Shown piece by piece: positions 12,309 to 53,687 of a DNA stretch of 64,000 bases (its first letter is position 1; the number at the start of each line of letters is the position of its first letter). A model generated the notes under the pieces. The model was not told the origin of the DNA. It saw only the letters and a program-made list of their open reading frames with translations, and did not search any database. This stretch comes from Allopusillimonas ginsengisoli (GTDB lineage: Bacteria; Pseudomonadota; Gammaproteobacteria; Burkholderiales; Burkholderiaceae_B), in the NCBI RefSeq assembly GCF_004153455.1, contig NZ_SDQE01000003.1:310001-374000 (forward strand), given 5' to 3'. The position numbers were made by a program, and so were the translations under genes.

Positions 12309-12398
12309 GGACAGGTGGCAGAGTGGTCGAATGCGCCGGACTCGAAATCCGGTATACGTTTAGGCGTATCGTGAGTTCGAATCTCACCCTGTCCGCCA
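12309..12398 (+). tRNA. tRNA-Ser (anticodon CGA)
   Basis: 90 bases including an encoded CCA. Acceptor stem GGACAGG (12309-12315) pairs with CCTGTCC (12388-12394), with discriminator G and CCA after it. Anticodon loop CTCGAAA gives CGA, reading UCG. A long variable arm (TATACGTTTAGGCGTATC) is typical of class II tRNA-Ser. T-loop TTCGAAT is normal. The 3' part from 12339 is the left copy of the prophage att core, so the 3' end of this working gene was supplied by the phage. Confidence 0.97.
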
Positions 12399-41953: not shown

Positions 41954-42022
41954 AACCCGCATACGGGTTGACATTAACCCATTTACGGGTTTACTATCGC
42001 CTCATCAACTCAAATATGAGTT
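41954..42022. promoter_or_regulatory. Operator array OL: three 16-bp dyads
   Basis: AACCC-GCATAC-GGGTT (41954-41969), AACCC-ATTTAC-GGGTT (41976-41991), AACTC-AAATAT-GAGTT (42007-42022). All are perfect dyads of the form AACYC-N6-GRGTT, spaced 22 and 31 bases. They cover the -35, the spacer and the start region of the rightward promoter. Confidence 0.88.
41968..41997 (+). promoter_or_regulatory. Rightward early promoter (PL equivalent)
   Basis: TTGACA (41968-41973), 18-base spacer, TACTAT (41992-41997); start near 42004. The -35 is perfect. Repressor on any of the three operators would block it. It should drive the early operon from the leader at 42074 to the integrase. Confidence 0.85.
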
Positions 42023-42073: not shown

Positions 42074-42119
42074 CGCTCTTTAACAACCTGCAGTGTGGAC
42101 CACACCAGATACGTCTGGT
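42074..42119 (+). promoter_or_regulatory. nut-like site: boxA plus hairpins
   Basis: CGCTCTTTAACA (42074-42085) is a near-perfect boxA, about 70 bases after the promoter start. It is followed by GTGTGG-A-CCACAC (42093-42105) and ACCAGA-TACG-TCTGGT (42104-42119), the latter a hairpin with a UNCG-type loop. The two share bases 42104-42105. This is the layout of an antitermination site (boxA then stem-loop), acting through Nus factors and perhaps a phage protein or the RNA itself. Confidence 0.7.
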
Positions 42120-42491
42120 GAATAACGGCACACGAACGACGCTGCGCACTGCCGTGAGGTGTAGGTGCGCCCGACAGGAGGGACGACCGACGTGTATGCC
42201 CTGGCCAAAAGACGACGGAAAACCACGGAAGCAAGCACGCGGACCTTTTATGGCGAGTGGGGCCTTGGCGCAGAGCCAGGCGGTGAAAGTGTGAAGCTGG
42301 ACGAACGGGCCAGCGCGCCAGTAATCAGTCGATGGCGAGTAATCGAATGATGACCACCGGGAGAAGGCCGGGACACTGCGAGCCGTCAATAGAGGCGGGA
42401 GTTGCGCAGGGAGCAGTAACCAAGGGCCTGGCAACAGGCCGCTTTGGCAAGCATCCGTGCTGGGTGCTTACTGAAGCGAGGATAAAAAAAT
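42120..42491 (+). ncRNA. Structured early leader RNA
   Basis: 370 bases without a credible gene. Hairpins seen: ACGGCA/TGCCGT around 42125-42155, GGCCTG-GCAA-CAGGCC with a GNRA loop (42425-42440), AAGCATCC-GTGCT-GGGTGCTT (42449-42469), and CTGCG/CGCAG near 42374-42402. The density of stems, including special tetraloops, suggests a folded RNA rather than spacer. It ends directly at the prohibitin-like gene. Confidence 0.5.
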
Positions 42492-44507: not shown

Positions 44508-44702
44508 ATGGAAACCCGAAAGCAAAACGTTCTCAGCGAAATCAAGACGCTCGTGCGAATCCTGAATACCTGGGGAAACGCGCTCGTGCCTGAATTGGAC
44601 GGCAAGCAAGTGACCGCGCAGGAAAGACTGTCGCATTTTGTGAGGGTCGCTCAAGACGAGTTTGGCATGACGCTGGACGAGATTGACGCCGCTATCGCAT
44701 GA
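44508..44702 (+). CDS. Hypothetical small phage protein
   Basis: 64 residues, ATG after AAAGGAGCGAC (clear ribosome site). Helical: 'NVLSEIKTLVRILNTWGNALV' and 'EFGMTLDEIDAAIA'. Last protein gene before the structured-RNA region. Confidence 0.55.
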   Translation: METRKQNVLSEIKTLVRILNTWGNALVPELDGKQVTAQERLSHFVRVAQDEFGMTLDEIDAAIA

Positions 44703-44822
44703 TCCCCGGCCCGGCCAGCCATAACCCCACGGCCACCAGCGCCCCTGCCTCGGCATGCGCTGGATATCAGCAAGCGAGGCGGCAGAAAGATGCTCGTGGC
44801 GAACTGACCACAGAGATTAGCC

Positions 44823-44984
44823 CTAGCGGTGACGCTTTCCGGAATTTTTCTTGTGGTTGGTATGCGCGCCACGCTCCTTGCTCACACGTTGGCCGCGGCC
44901 TTGTGTGGTAAGGACCACGCCCTTGGGGGCGACGGGACGCGGAGTGCGCTTGCGGTCGGCTTCAGTAACGATTTTGTTGCCCAT
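44823..44984 (-). CDS. Small basic protein on the opposite strand
   Basis: 53 residues, 'MGNKIVTEADRKRTPRPVA...' with 16 Lys/Arg, ending 'NHKKNSGKRHR'. It is the only leftward gene in the rightward early operon and lies between the last small gene and the structured RNA. The start has only a weak GAGAG ribosome site. It may be a nucleic-acid-binding protein, possibly for the neighbouring RNA (speculation). Confidence 0.42.
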   Translation of the reverse strand: MGNKIVTEADRKRTPRPVAPKGVVLTTQGRGQRVSKERGAHTNHKKNSGKRHR

Positions 44985-45091
44985 GGAAATCTCTCTAGTT
45001 TGGTTAAGCTGGTCATTGTTACACATTCGCTCGGTTTATTGTTGACAGCAGGAAGCAGGCAGAGGATTTGCCCGTTTGAGCGTTGGTAGCG

Positions 45092-46604
45092 CCATCAAGT
45101 ATCCGCCTAGCCAGGGATGTGCCCCTGGTTCCGCACATGGACACAGGCGGGTGGATTCTTGATGGAGTGCGGAACAGTTCGGGTCGGCGTATTGCACGAC
45201 CGCACCCACTCAGGCCGATGACCTCATAGAACGGCGAGGAAACGCAAATCTGTCACTTCCGCCCTGGCGAAGTAAAAGGCCAGGACCATCACATAGGCGG
45301 CGGCGTGGAAAGCGGACACGCTACAAACGACATGACTCGATGGGGATCGGCCCTTGGAGATGGGAACCAAGGTCGGTAGCTGGCACACCTCGCTTGTGAC
45401 AGGTGGAAATAGGCCCCTGAACGCACTCGAACAGCAGGCATTACCGAGCAATTGGGTGATAGTGCGCACGCCTGCGGTCATTACACAGAGCATGTACGTT
45501 CCCGAGCCGGAGTAGCGCCCGGCCCGCCTATGTGATGAGGCGCCACCCCTCCCGCCAAAAAGCAGGGGCCAGCTGAAAGGAGAAGGTCATGCTCGGCAGC
45601 TAAGCGTAGCGGCGCAATCCGCACCTAATCCGTGAACACACCGGACGTAGAAAGCTGAACGACATCAGCATGGGAACAGACTGGCCCGACGGTTGGGGAG
45701 CACCCACCCCCGATAACCGGAAGACGGCACACAAAAGACTACGGGAAGTACCCCTGCGCTGCGGTCGGTTCGCGGCGTAGGGCCATCAAGCGAGGCGATT
45801 AAGCGAGCAAGCCCGGTATCCGGTACGCAAGGCTAATGCGCCGGGGACTGCTCCGGGAGTCGCCTCACTTGATGGCAAAGCGAAGTGGCGATTCGCAAGT
45901 GTCTAGGGGACTGGAAGCGGCCACAGCGGGACACCGCACATGGCAAAGAAGGTTCCGGCCTTCCGTCAAAAACCGGGAAACAGGCAACCCACAGGCAAAC
46001 GACGTGCACATAACCTGCCGGGTGCACGCGGTGATCGGCCCCACAACACGCGGTGGCAAGCCGGGATCGCCTCCGGTGCCATCAACCCAAACGTAGGGCG
46101 CAGGCCCATAAGAATCGAAGCGGATGCCGCTGGTAGGAAAAACGGATTGGGGCTGCCCCGGTCGGCCTATAGCGCAGCGGTGCAGCATCGCGTATGCCTC
46201 CACGATACGGGGCACCAAATACCGCTGGGGAGAACGCCGAGTTCTATGGCCTTGCCATCAGCCCACCGAATGAGCCACATGGGCGTTGATTTCGGGAACA
46301 GGCGTGACAGCCGGGAGAGACCGGCACCATGATCGAAGCGGCGGCGTGGAGCTAATGCCACGGCAAGACTATGAAGCGCCGGAATGCTCGGGATTGAGAT
46401 AGGCCCGAGCCCGCTTCGATGATGGTGTGGTGAAATTGGTAGACACAAGCGGCTAGGGGCCGGAAGGCGGGAGTAGGACGCCAAAACCGAAACCCGAAAG
46501 CCTGACACCGCTGGCGCATGCGGGTTCAAGTCCCGCCACCATCTACCGCCCTCCCCCATGACTTGGCTGGCATGCTTCGCATGTTGGGGAGGGCACCCAT
46601 CAAG
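45092..46604 (+). ncRNA. Giant structured RNA candidate (GOLLD/ROOL-like or new class)
   Basis: About 1.5 kb with no supported gene and an exceptional number of exact helices. Examples: CCATCAAG 45092-45099 / 45158-45165; a 9-bp pseudoknot GTTCCGCAC 45128-45136 / GTGCGGAAC 45167-45175; a 14-bp perfect long-range helix 45287-45300 / 45524-45537; CCTTGG 45352-45357 / CCAAGG 45367-45372; an 11-bp hairpin 45752-45762 / 45772-45782; 45782-45798 / 45860-45876 (16 pairs, one mismatch); 46075-46080 / 46211-46216; 46127-46132 / 46175-46180; a 10-bp helix 46332-46341 / 46411-46420; 46386-46392 / 46404-46410; and a closing 9-bp hairpin 46548-46556 / 46586-46594. A tRNA-like domain is embedded at 46421-46543. 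Phage location and a tRNA-like part are features of GOLLD RNAs. Ends are set by the outermost helices and are approximate; it is probably part of the long early transcript. Confidence 0.72.
46421..46543 (+). ncRNA. tRNA-Leu-like domain with disrupted anticodon arm
   Basis: Acceptor GATGGTG (46421-46427) pairs with CACCATC (46537-46543); D-arm GTG-AAATTGGTAGA-CAC is almost tRNA-Leu; T-arm GCGGG-TTCAAGT-CCCGC is normal. The anticodon stem AGCGG (46448-46452) / CCGCT (46508-46512) encloses 55 bases instead of 7, and the variable arm is only 7 bases. No CCA is encoded and the discriminator is T. It cannot decode, so it is a mimic or structural module, starting directly after the 10-bp helix of the flanking RNA. 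Confidence 0.72.
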
Positions 46605-46723
46605 CGGACTCTGACCCAATACCCCTAGCCCTTTTTCCTGGCGGATGCGGGGCGCGCCGTGCTGTGCGGCAGGGGTCTTGGCTGAGGGTCTGCATCACAT
46701 TCCCAACTCAGGGAGATACCACT

Positions 46724-47143
46724 ATGGATACCGTAATTGGCCGGGTTGCCTCGGTCGGAGCAACTGCGCCCGACGACTGGAGCGCAGCGCAAGAAGGCAG
46801 GTACTACGCCCTGCTGCATGAAATCGAGGTCGAGACTCACAAGAAGGTGCGCGACGTAGTGATCGGCGTCCTGTCTGGCGTCTTGCCGCAATGCCGCATG
46901 CAAACACCTTTTGGCTTTCGCAACGTCAATGCCGTAGACATATTTCGCGCCGTGACTGAGGAACTAAGGAACGAGGACTTTGAGACTGTCATCCCCGGCT
47001 ATGACGACGACCTACCACTGGATGAAATGGCAAAGCTCTTGGCATCGTCACCCACCAATGCCGCCAAGGCACTGATTGATGAGTACTGCCAACTCACCGC
47101 TCATACGCTGGCGTTCTGGCAAATGATGCAGGAGGGCTTATGA
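46724..47143 (+). CDS. Hypothetical phage protein
   Basis: 139 residues, ATG 46724 after GGGAGATACC. 'IDTVIGRVASVG...' start, later 'VNAVDIFRAVTEELRNEDFETVI' and a helical C-terminus ending 'HTLAFWQMMQEGL'. No known family. First protein after the structured RNA; ATGA-coupled to the next gene. Confidence 0.6.
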   Translation: MDTVIGRVASVGATAPDDWSAAQEGRYYALLHEIEVETHKKVRDVVIGVLSGVLPQCRMQTPFGFRNVNAVDIFRAVTEELRNEDFETVIPGYDDDLPLDEMAKLLASSPTNAAKALIDEYCQLTAHTLAFWQMMQEGL

Positions 47144-47375: not shown

Positions 47376-48104
47376 ATGAACGCAGTCATTGAAATGGAAA
47401 GCAAACCCAATACCGCTGTCGCAGTCGCGACTCCCGCTGATCTGTTGCGCATTGCGGTCGAGCAAGGGGCAGATCTGGATAAGTTGGAGCGCCTCATGGA
47501 TCTGCAAGACCGTTACAACGCAGCACAGGCCAAACGCGCCTACGACGAAGCTTTTGCGGCATTCAAAGCCGAGGCGGTAAAGATCGTTAAAAACAAAGCC
47601 GTCGAGGGCAATAGTCCGCTTGCAGGCAAACGATATGCCGAGCTGCATGACATTGTGAAGGCAGTCACTCCGGCACTATCCAAGCATGGGCTGTCATCTT
47701 CCTGGAAGCTCACCAAGGATGAAAAAGACTGGATGGAAGTTACCTGCTATTTGCGTCATGTCGGAGGGCATCAAGAATCCGTCTCCATGGGCGGGCCTCC
47801 AGATACAGGCGGCGCCAAAAACGCCATACAGGCCAGGGCCAGCACCAAAACGTATCTTGAACGCTACACCCTCAAGGCCATCACCGGGCTGTCCGAAGAA
47901 AACGACGATACGGACGGCAACGTGTACAAGCAGGCCGCGCTGGATGAATGGGTCGAGAAGGCGCAATCCGCAAAGAGCGCAAGCGAACTTATCCGCATCA
48001 AGAGAGACGGCAATGCGTTCTTCAGCAAGGCCCGTGATCGGGACAGTTTCAAGCAATTCAATGCCACCGTTTCCGCATTGATGGACGGACTGCAAGGGGG
48101 GTAG
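47376..48104 (+). CDS. ERF-family single-strand annealing protein
   Basis: 242 residues. The ERF core runs through 'FKAEAVKIVKNKAVEGN', 'YAELHDIVKAVTPALSKHGLSSSW' and 'TYLERYTLKAITGLSEENDDTDGN'. ERF proteins anneal complementary strands and circularise or recombine phage DNA. It pairs with the exonuclease two bases downstream, like Red beta/exo. Confidence 0.93.
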   Translation: MNAVIEMESKPNTAVAVATPADLLRIAVEQGADLDKLERLMDLQDRYNAAQAKRAYDEAFAAFKAEAVKIVKNKAVEGNSPLAGKRYAELHDIVKAVTPALSKHGLSSSWKLTKDEKDWMEVTCYLRHVGGHQESVSMGGPPDTGGAKNAIQARASTKTYLERYTLKAITGLSEENDDTDGNVYKQAALDEWVEKAQSAKSASELIRIKRDGNAFFSKARDRDSFKQFNATVSALMDGLQGG

Positions 48105-52563: not shown

Positions 52564-52920
52564 ATGGAACTGACAGCCATACCGCCTGCACAGGCAGCAC
52601 GCCTATTAGGGATATCCCGAAGCAAAGTCTATACCTTGGCTGCACCCGAAGGGCCGATCCCTTGCGTTCGCATCGGTAGGCGCGTGATCTTCGAGATGTC
52701 CGATCTGATGGAGTACAGAGAAAAATGTCGATCTATAGAGACAAAGGCCACGGTTGTTTCGTCTTTGAATTCGACCGCTCGATTGAAAACAAGCGTGTCC
52801 GAGTTAGAAAGCGTCTTCCAAAAACTTGGAGTAAAACCCAAGCGGACGCCTTCGATCGCAAGGAGTCAGCGAGACTCTACGGCATCGCGACCGGCGTTGA
52901 GCGTCATCGGCACACCATAG
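52564..52920 (+). CDS. Excisionase-like DNA-binding protein (MerR/AlpA-type HTH)
   Basis: 118 residues; ATG 52564 after GGAGGTAAAGT. 'IPPAQAARLLGISRSKVYTLAAPEGPIPCVRIGRRVIFEMSDLMEY' is the excisionase-family helix-turn-helix with wing. The gene overlaps the integrase start by 196 bases in another frame; the part after residue 55 is Ser/Thr-rich and may be dictated by the integrase frame. Confidence 0.75.
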   Translation: MELTAIPPAQAARLLGISRSKVYTLAAPEGPIPCVRIGRRVIFEMSDLMEYREKCRSIETKATVVSSLNSTARLKTSVSELESVFQKLGVKPKRTPSIARSQRDSTASRPALSVIGTP

Positions 52921-53687
52921 AAGAAGCTGTCGTTGTCTACATCAGGGACAAGAAGCACCTGAAATCCCACCAGTCCGCGGTAGAGCATCTTGCCGCGGTA
53001 GCGTGGGCCTACGAAGGAAAGTTCATAGACGAGCTTCCCGCGGCTGCTGAAAGAATCGTGGAGGAATCGGTAGGTTATGCCGCAGCTACTCTCAGAAACC
53101 GTATCGCACTACTTCGCGCCGCGTGTCGATGGGCATGGAAAAAGCACGCCATGGCAGACCGCGATCCAGCCGAGCGCCTTCAAATTCCCGCGGTAAACAA
53201 CGAGCGCCATACCTACATCGATGTTGCGCAATTGCACAAAATCATCCGGCACTGCAAGAACCCTCACGCCAGACGCGTCATCGTGACGGCCTTTTACACT
53301 GGCATGAGGCTATCGGAAATACTGAGAGCCACCATAGAAGGCGATTTCTTTGTCGTGCTGGACACCAAAAACGGAGACTCTATCAGGCGTGTGCCGCTGC
53401 ATCCGCGGCTGGCGGCTTACCTTGAAGGGCATTGGCCTCCTGGCTGCAAGCAAAAAACCGTGCAAAAATGGTTTCAGCTTTCCAGAGACAAGGCGAGGTT
53501 GCCTGGAGTGCATTTCCACGACTTGAGGCATTCGACGGCTTCGGCGCTGATCAACGGGGATGTTGACCTGTATACGGTAGGCGTGATCCTTGGGCACAAA
53601 GACCCGCGGTCAACGAAAAGATACTCCCACCTGAACGATAAGACCCTGGCCGCGGCAATCGGCAAGATCGGGCAGAAAGTGGCCTAG
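52725..53687 (+). CDS. int: Tyrosine-recombinase integrase
   Basis: 320 residues. Catalytic residues visible: Arg195 (TGMRLSEIL), Lys215, His265 and Arg268 (HDLRH), His291 (GHKD) and Tyr300 (RYSH). The N-terminal ~55 residues are an arm-binding region. It joins the phage att core with tRNA-Ser and sits 107 bases from attR. It starts inside the xis-like gene. Confidence 0.96.
   Translation: MSIYRDKGHGCFVFEFDRSIENKRVRVRKRLPKTWSKTQADAFDRKESARLYGIATGVERHRHTIEEAVVVYIRDKKHLKSHQSAVEHLAAVAWAYEGKFIDELPAAAERIVEESVGYAAATLRNRIALLRAACRWAWKKHAMADRDPAERLQIPAVNNERHTYIDVAQLHKIIRHCKNPHARRVIVTAFYTGMRLSEILRATIEGDFFVVLDTKNGDSIRRVPLHPRLAAYLEGHWPPGCKQKTVQKWFQLSRDKARLPGVHFHDLRHSTASALINGDVDLYTVGVILGHKDPRSTKRYSHLNDKTLAAAIGKIGQKVA

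Follow-up and report, generated by a model that had tools for sequence, protein, structure and literature searches.

An apparently non-coding chain of exchangeable RNA modules, with predicted tRNA-like elbows, in the early region of a prophage

What is encoded by a stretch of about 1.5 kb in the early region of a prophage, in which no protein family is recognised? The question arises in a window of 64,000 nucleotides from Allopusillimonas ginsengisoli (contig NZ_SDQE01000003.1, positions 310,001 to 374,000 of the forward strand), which is the whole stretch of DNA analysed here; window features are given in its coordinates and lie on its plus strand unless stated otherwise. The prophage is integrated in tRNA-Ser(CGA), with a direct repeat of at least 40 bp at 12339 and 53795, in a host genome of 4.52 Mb. 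Genes for an integrase (52725-53687) and an Erf-type recombinase (47376-48104) lie inside it, and the stretch in question has small genes on one side and recombination genes on the other. An earlier note had described 45092-46604 as a large, ornate, phage-borne RNA of the early region, with pseudoknots and a tRNA-like domain, and this much is supported. We conclude that the stretch is almost certainly a structured, apparently non-coding RNA made of exchangeable modules. A widespread tRNA-elbow module, a boxA leader at 42075 and the edges of cassettes are features that lay outside the earlier note.

The stretch had been described as protein-free, and we find no sign of coding. Six ORFs of at least 60 aa occur within 45224-46619 (64-150 aa), none with a match in PHROGs or Pfam at an E value of 0.1, and relatives of 45292-45532 differ by 1-, 2-, 3- and 22-column gaps as well as by paired changes. 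The idea that the region encodes protein instead of RNA draws on an annotated CDS (hypothetical protein) that covers the homologue in phage Orimi01, and on a 468-aa ORF antisense to the array of the related source G109. That ORF, like those of the window, has no protein family match, and given the non-triplet gaps, the paired changes and the negative family searches we disfavour a coding region as hardly credible.

The four helices specified in the earlier note are all present as described: the 14-bp helix 45287-45300/45524-45537 (14 of 14 pairs), helix 45782-45798/45860-45876 (16 of 17) and the 10-bp helix beside the tRNA-like domain, which we place at 46332-46341/46411-46420 (10 of 10). The 9-bp pseudoknot 45128-45136/45167-45175 also pairs completely (9 of 9), but it spans the edge of a cassette, and G205, the only close relative available for this pairing, lacks it (read by eye). 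The statement that such helices are far above random expectation holds only in part: it is borne out for perfect helices within 300 nt of at least 9 bp (6, versus a shuffle mean of 1.5 and a maximum of 5 in 100 shuffles), at least 10 bp (2, versus a mean of 0.45 and a maximum of 2) and at least 12 bp (1, versus a mean of 0.04), but not for those of at least 8 bp, for which 9 versus 6.9 in shuffles is not unusual, nor for most folding energies. By chance alone, the helix set is only moderately surprising. Folding energy is low at 45650-45949 (z -3.4) and 46150-46449 (z -2.3) and ordinary in the other five 300-nt windows over the region; the opposite strand gives z -3.3 and -1.6 in the same two windows. 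As proof of RNA structure these z-scores are weak and not strand-specific, and they were set aside. The case for a predicted structured RNA is strong, and it rests on comparative, not energetic, evidence.

That evidence can be followed in the first tRNA-elbow module (45287-45537), aligned among the window, Orimi01, five IMG/VR contigs and G063; the structure was drawn from the same alignment. The module consists of a closing stem (45287-45300/45524-45537), a D-arm (45303-45307/45317-45321), a T-arm (45506-45510/45519-45523) and, between the arms, stem S1 (45353-45357/45367-45371), helix S2 that pairs with the S1 loop (45362-45366/45499-45503), two helices that cross each other, P5 (45422-45426/45462-45466) and P6 (45434-45439/45470-45475), and P7 (45441-45445/45455-45459). 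The closing stem, S2, P5, P7 and the T-arm covary; the D-arm, S1 and P6 never vary. Across the eight sequences the 50 pairs are 93.8% paired, and pairing drops to 29-46% on sliding by 1-3 columns. Changes on both sides were found at 12 pairs and in 26 cells, versus 5.7 and 6.5 in shuffles, and none of the 500 shuffles was as high. The number of further pair types was not above shuffles (302 of 500), and the hairpin 45386-45405 fits poorly (59.5%). Covariation among relatives thus supports the helices. A module identical to that of the window is present in IMG/VR contig IMGVR_UViG_2891648259_000002 (L210).

Upstream of this module are cassette 1 (45092-45165), a hairpin CCATCAAG...CTTGATGG that by eye recurs with a different interior in G205 and L188, and a recurrent hairpin CCTGGCGAAGTAAAAGGCCAGG (45253-45286) directly 5' of the CCATCA edge, which is found in 8 other loci, twice in G109. 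Downstream is a second structured domain (45539-45788), a cassette of its own with sharp junctions and five relatives: it is 82% identical over 255 nt in G230, the other relatives cover 45605-45757 or less, and 5 of its 19 predicted pairs are changed on both sides. Also present are a cassette at a CCATCA/TGATGG site (45782-45876), in place of which G230 carries another hairpin; a domain with ATCGAAGCGGATGC...GGTGCAGC...CGATACGG (46106-46235), with similar blocks by eye in G109 and G205 and 78% identity to G076 over 46106-46193; and a recurrent hairpin of the type GTGACAGCCGGGAGAGACCGGCAC (46300-46327), with short matches in the early regions of phage records from Pseudomonas, Stenotrophomonas and cyanobacteria. 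A second tRNA-elbow module follows (46331-46420; closing stem ATCGAAGCGG/CCGCTTCGAT), matched by our covariance model R1 at 25.7 bits (E 0.0028). The last element (46421-46544) has the frame of a tRNA-Leu and matches the Rfam tRNA model at 39.9 bits. Its acceptor, GATGGTG/CACCATC, equals the edge motif of the array, and its 5' end matches the cellular tRNA-Leu(TAA) of a relative. About 53 nt are inserted in place of the 7-nt anticodon loop, the acceptor is followed by TACC rather than an encoded CCA, and neither ARAGORN nor a faster scan of the whole window called it. On these comparisons the window array is a chain of exchangeable RNA domains, with two tRNA-elbow modules and then the tRNA-Leu frame.

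Exchange of the domains is evident from where agreement between relatives ends. The window matches G063 from CATCACATAGG as far as TATGTGATG, where the agreement stops; it matches G230 through the next domain as far as GGGCCATCA, after which the two have different hairpins that close with TGATGG. In Burkholderiales prophages, modules are exchanged at CCATCA/TGATGG edges within long untranslated stretches (1.6 kb in one), and the content and order of domains vary between prophages. Of the 29 array loci searched, 19 have CATCA/TGATG cassettes, about 21 in all (42 raw when both strands are counted) and with 13 upper stems between them, versus 0-1 raw cassettes in ten shuffled sets. Only the 45287 cassette has the strict form in the window, because the other window hairpins have early mismatches. 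The modules of the chain recombine separately, and the description of 1.5 kb as a single RNA is unproven. Phages Medea1, Pag-Yong1, BUCT708 and Cruim01 (L225, L226, L227 and L228) also have early stretches, about 0.7-0.9 kb long, in which no gene is annotated; three of the four contain GCCGGGA(A/G)AGACCGGC, of which Cruim01 has a variant, and the D-arm string CGGCGTGG is absent from all four stretches. These are perhaps further RNA arrays.

Kinship with GOLLD and ROOL, which the earlier note had proposed, finds no backing in searches with covariance models. In a scan of 44700-46800 against the 4,227 families of Rfam 15, with permissive filters and E values up to 10, cmscan returned the tRNA-like element 46421-46544, the only credible Rfam 15 match in the stretch, and one sub-threshold miRNA. 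Membership in GOLLD, ROOL, OLE or HEARO was accordingly rejected, and module 45287-45537 has no match to any Rfam 15 family. Nor was a large-RNA family matched in the 29 related sources, scanned as sets of 15, 8 and 6 (E limits 2, 1 and 1; some represent the same places). Rfam 15 includes a YrlA model, and this too gave no match in 44700-46800 or in the 29 related sources. Those sources did match ordinary tRNAs, sub-threshold families, RF02917 (Burkholderiales-2) and, in G109, RT-15 RNA. In blastn searches, patchy matches to the region were found in 7 phage records and none in a plasmid collection. Among 268 genomes of the family, 31 matched: the genome itself, 23 others, several with matches that span only about 29-35 nt, and 7 excluded because they matched only via a 23-nt piece of cellular tRNA-Leu.

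The array resembles GOLLD and ROOL, as described in one report (PMC12286853), in its size, its link to phages, its crossing helices and the tRNA nearby, and there is a second conserved domain besides the module. These features suggest that the array might fold into a large RNA-only particle that holds or displays tRNAs, ribosomes or proteins, with the modules as joints. We consider such a scaffold or cage unlikely, as there is no Rfam match to GOLLD or ROOL, modules of about 100 nt live alone in many phages, and the order and content of domains differ among prophages.

The tRNA-elbow module forms a class of RNAs, seen in about 100 loci, mostly phage contigs, among the matches listed. Its frame consists of a closing stem N7GG/CCN7, two nucleotides, a D-arm GCGTG-loop-CACGC, an insert, and a 5-bp T-arm hairpin with a T-loop-like loop that immediately adjoins the closing stem's 3' strand. 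The closing stem is typically about 9 bp and reaches 14 bp in the window module. A search of IMG/VR with the D-arm pattern gave at least 120 stretches with 124 anchors; among these matches, 100 close both stem and T-arm, 94 of them with at least 13 of 14 pairs, and at least 5 of the 24 that do not close run off the contig end. With swapped stems 494 of 2,445 close (191 with at least 13 of 14 pairs), and with shuffled downstream sequence 181 of 1,240 (34 with at least 13 of 14). The 114 accepted modules lie in 109 loci, some of which duplicate one place, and have 81 distinct closing stems; 39 of them extend the 9 bp by 4-12 more. Chance probably accounts for a few of the modules (T-arms are odd in L117, L140 and L149). 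Among 22 compact members, 10 of 19 pairs are changed on both sides, in 71 cells versus 19.4 in shuffles (none of 500 as high). Closing was an acceptance criterion, so the independent tests are the anchor-closure controls and a scan with model R1.

R1 matches 22 of 25 genome contigs picked by the D-arm string (26 were found; L164, which duplicates another place, was omitted). Of 8 named phages it matches 5, namely AP1, POI1126, Persinger, Pan3 and DMCA, and misses Orimi01, PotUPM1 and D14H. The D-arm alone scores about 30 bits, as in the first window module, whose 3' end the model misplaced; independent support therefore comes from the 20 contigs and the 4 phages that score above 42 bits. Among genomes of the order, R1 matched at least 4 of 300, a lower bound since it missed the window's own genome. 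The exact D-arm string was found in 26 stretches of the genome-contig collection and in none of 369 genomes of the class. Host labels of phages with modules are Pseudomonas, Ochrobactrum, Caulobacter, Acidovorax and Pseudanabaena, and contigs with modules are labelled alpha-, beta- and gammaproteobacteria, Acidobacteria, Zavarzinella and Bacteroidetes. Two individual cases may be mentioned: a 205-kb phage contig has two modules about 160 nt apart with the same closing stem and different inserts (L095:1905-2288), and by eye a tRNA-like sequence seems to be nested in the insert of another module (L102:528-675).

The two loops of the elbow vary together. Type A D-loops (GAAGGA, GATGGA) occur with T-loops such as TATCAAGC or TGTCGAAT, type B D-loops (GAAAGCAGA) with T-loop AGTAGCGC, and a few type C D-loops with TTCAATT-like T-loops. 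The classes, defined after inspection, agree in 103 of 114 modules; where both loops are of class A or B (99 modules), a single one is crossed. Both loops differ together in L065 and L119, despite 86% in common over a 43-nt stretch of the insert, and in L073 and L022, which have an insert motif in common. Such joint switching argues for a contact between the loops as in the tRNA elbow, and a three-dimensional elbow is what we infer for the modules. By eye, three relatives of the window module, L206, L208 and L209, have an extra hairpin within the D-loop, with stems that are different yet complementary.

The inserts, by comparison, are nearly free to vary: the 114 modules have 108 different inserts, and a single common insert family was rejected because blastn groups only nine of the 108, into four clusters. 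A pseudoknot in which an insert hairpin loop pairs with the strand just 5' of the T-arm is commoner than in shuffles, at p<=0.05 in 21 of 108 inserts and at p<=0.01 in 15 (this constrained form was chosen in the light of a prior search without constraints, in which 14 of 65 reached p<=0.05). Any such pairing was found in 83 inserts versus 63 expected. The pseudoknot is enriched and not universal, as 87 of the 108 are not significant. It covaries from L022 to L073, where GTCGCA/TGCGAC becomes GCAGCG/CGCTGC and GTCGG/CCGAC becomes GAGGT/ACCTC. A closing stem and insert that are nearly free, around a fixed elbow, point to a conserved binding partner and a fast-changing payload. The mosaic spread, the tRNA-Leu-derived frame and the palindromic ends could also be expected of degenerate tRNA-derived pieces that spread via inverted-repeat ends and have no phage function. 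Covariation in the closing stem, T-arm and insert and the joint switching of the loops make such drifting or selfish cassettes quite improbable.

Transcription of the array is probably boxA-dependent, judging from the arrangement of the early operon. A promoter with consensus match was identified (41968-41997; TTGACA at 41968-41973, an 18-nt spacer and TACTAT at 41992-41997), overlapped by inverted repeats (AACCC..ACGGGTT) that by eye look like repressor operators. The boxA GCTCTTTAACAA (42075-42086), whose distance to the start of the -10 element is 83 nt, is the same, letter for letter, as the one in the leader of the host 16S rRNA. Across the 4.52-Mb genome the pattern GCTCTTTAANAA was found 4 times, and a reversed-pattern control once. 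The four sites are about 200 nt before the only 16S gene found, in the window, and in two copies of another element. These copies (G000:C12:8695 and G000:C22:637666; L216 and L218) are near-identical, with XRE- and AlpA-like ORFs by eye and an rRNA-type boxA leader.

In the collected loci boxA occurs 26 times, duplicates included, and in each case it lies upstream on the RNA strand, as oriented by the module in the 19 that have one and by BLAST in the other 7. In related prophages it opens the array operon, 501-2,419 nt before the module. The distance from promoter to boxA is 42-113 nt in phage loci where a promoter was called, and 113 nt in the host rRNA leader. BoxA is a companion of arrays and not of lone modules: of 153 locus-strands that bear modules, duplicates included, 19 have it. 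Elsewhere, boxA protects long untranslated RNAs such as CRISPR arrays. The predicted early leader RNA (42075-42490), the upstream part of the same operon, is similar to the leader of G109 (86% identity over 42074-42222), where boxA, leader and modules lie within 1,638 nt before the next recognised gene. Between boxA and array the window has five ORFs, four on the plus strand (PHROGs matches in three of these) and one on the minus strand; with ORFs in between, the array would be reached by read-through, and one transcript is unproven.

Two observations concern known RNA families near these leaders. RF02917 matches L186:2067-2142 (-), L197:5170-5245 (+) and L022:391-466 (-), on the strand opposite the boxA leader transcript, and directly after boxA in L186 and L197; the family may have been drawn on the wrong strand in Rfam. 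An RT-15 RNA (RF03018, 157.6 bits) was identified at L193:1072-1261 (-), about 1.8 kb from the G109 array.

Whether the modules act on the mRNA that contains them bears on this arrangement. Arrays are within early operons behind boxA, some modules by eye end shortly 5' of a start codon, and tRNA-like elements can act as processing sites. The modules might thus insulate, process (as RNase P/Z-like sites), stabilise or regulate early mRNA, or contribute RNA-based antitermination. We regard a cis-acting RNA as rather unlikely: among 58 modules the neighbouring ORF is on the same strand in 35 and on the opposite strand in 23 (ORFs on either side; the same 23 of 58 for the downstream ORF), T-arm and closing stem usually total at least 14 bp versus 12 in tRNA, and the module of Pseudomonas phage Persinger is followed at once by a terminator. 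Regulation of a fixed neighbour was rejected, as orientation is inconsistent. The Persinger module (L183:3993-4097) is compact and lone. By eye its closing stem has 6 bp; TACACT lies just 5' of the module, and the stem of an intrinsic terminator lies 11 nt 3' of it. Own signals are not the rule for lone modules, in which a promoter score of at least 8 (background 1.2%) and a terminator (background 0.4%) were each found in 3 of 71; being so rare, they leave most lone modules probably in longer transcripts.

The ORF orientations and the Persinger terminator count in favour of action in trans, and the chance that the modules are trans-acting tRNA mimics seems to us close to even. In the mechanism that we prefer, RNA polymerase would start at 41968-41997 after induction, host Nus factors on the rRNA-type boxA would render it resistant to termination, and it would read via the small genes into the untranslated array. 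The modules would then act in trans, occupying host proteins that bind the tRNA elbow. In the best-motivated case they would be decoys for tRNA-cleaving anti-phage nucleases, unable to be cut where an insert replaces the anticodon arm. This case is motivated by the mimicry of tRNA, by anticodon arms that are replaced, by the early or accessory positions of the modules, by the rapid exchange of their inserts and by a suggestion made for YrlA: one study proposes this tRNA-like RNA as a competitive inhibitor of an anticodon nuclease (PMC7790460). Decoys for tRNA-targeting immunity are possible but doubtful.

As an overall explanation we tentatively favour the boxA-driven, modular tRNA-mimic array acting in trans, while giving it somewhat less than an even chance. 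Counted against it are long closing stems without an encoded CCA, which would make a poor ordinary tRNA, the rarity of own promoters and terminators, the 87 of 108 inserts with a non-significant pseudoknot, the single strict cassette of the window, the antisense ORF of G109, the ORFs between boxA and array, and the absence of boxA from lone modules.

A tRNA-like elbow that stays fixed, combined with a closing stem that varies freely and with exchangeable inserts that are often pseudoknotted, appears to be new relative to Rfam 15 and the literature searched, in which no description of this RNA class was found, most subscription papers being outside its reach. Phage biology gains with it a widely distributed class of structured RNA. 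A broader proposal, of an early-expressed phage RNA class outside Rfam 15 with a constant elbow chassis, hypervariable inserts, structure-preserving cassettes and rRNA-type antitermination, serving to decoy or inhibit host machines that recognise the shape of tRNA, is speculative and, taken whole, doubtful. If true, it would be an RNA counterpart of anti-defence gene islands, traded between phages. The module class makes two questions directly testable, the roles of giant phage RNAs and the way in which phages transcribe untranslated kilobases without Rho termination. Lone modules of about 100 nt let such work begin from a small RNA, and that of Persinger is the best minimal test object.

Among known systems, GOLLD is likewise large, phage-borne, ornate and associated with a tRNA (here the tRNA-Leu-like 46421-46544), but the array lacks a match to its covariance model and is built of exchangeable cassettes, the main module of which also occurs alone. 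ROOL is also phage-borne, pseudoknotted and near a tRNA; again the array has no covariance-model match, and its anatomy is different. RF02917 overlaps, in G063 and G054, the leader domain that comes first behind boxA, but its Rfam model is on the strand opposite the proposed leader transcript. With boxA antitermination of rRNA operons the locus shares the 12-nt boxA itself, which is identical, its similar spacing from the promoter and its position before a long untranslated RNA; the difference is that these are phage early operons, in which the role of Nus is putative. Element 46421-46544 keeps the acceptor, D-arm and T-arm of tRNA-Leu, as its 39.9-bit match to the tRNA covariance model indicates, and the 3' half of the module D-arm, GACACGC, resembles tRNA-Leu by eye. 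Both differ from tRNA-Leu in having neither an anticodon arm nor an encoded CCA, and the closing stem of the modules is usually at least 9 bp. YrlA is likewise a non-coding RNA with a tRNA-like domain, proposed as a competitor of a nuclease, and by their joint loop classes the modules would share its D/T elbow. They differ from YrlA in having no Rfam match, in a closing stem that is open-ended and in the insert that occupies the position of the anticodon arm.
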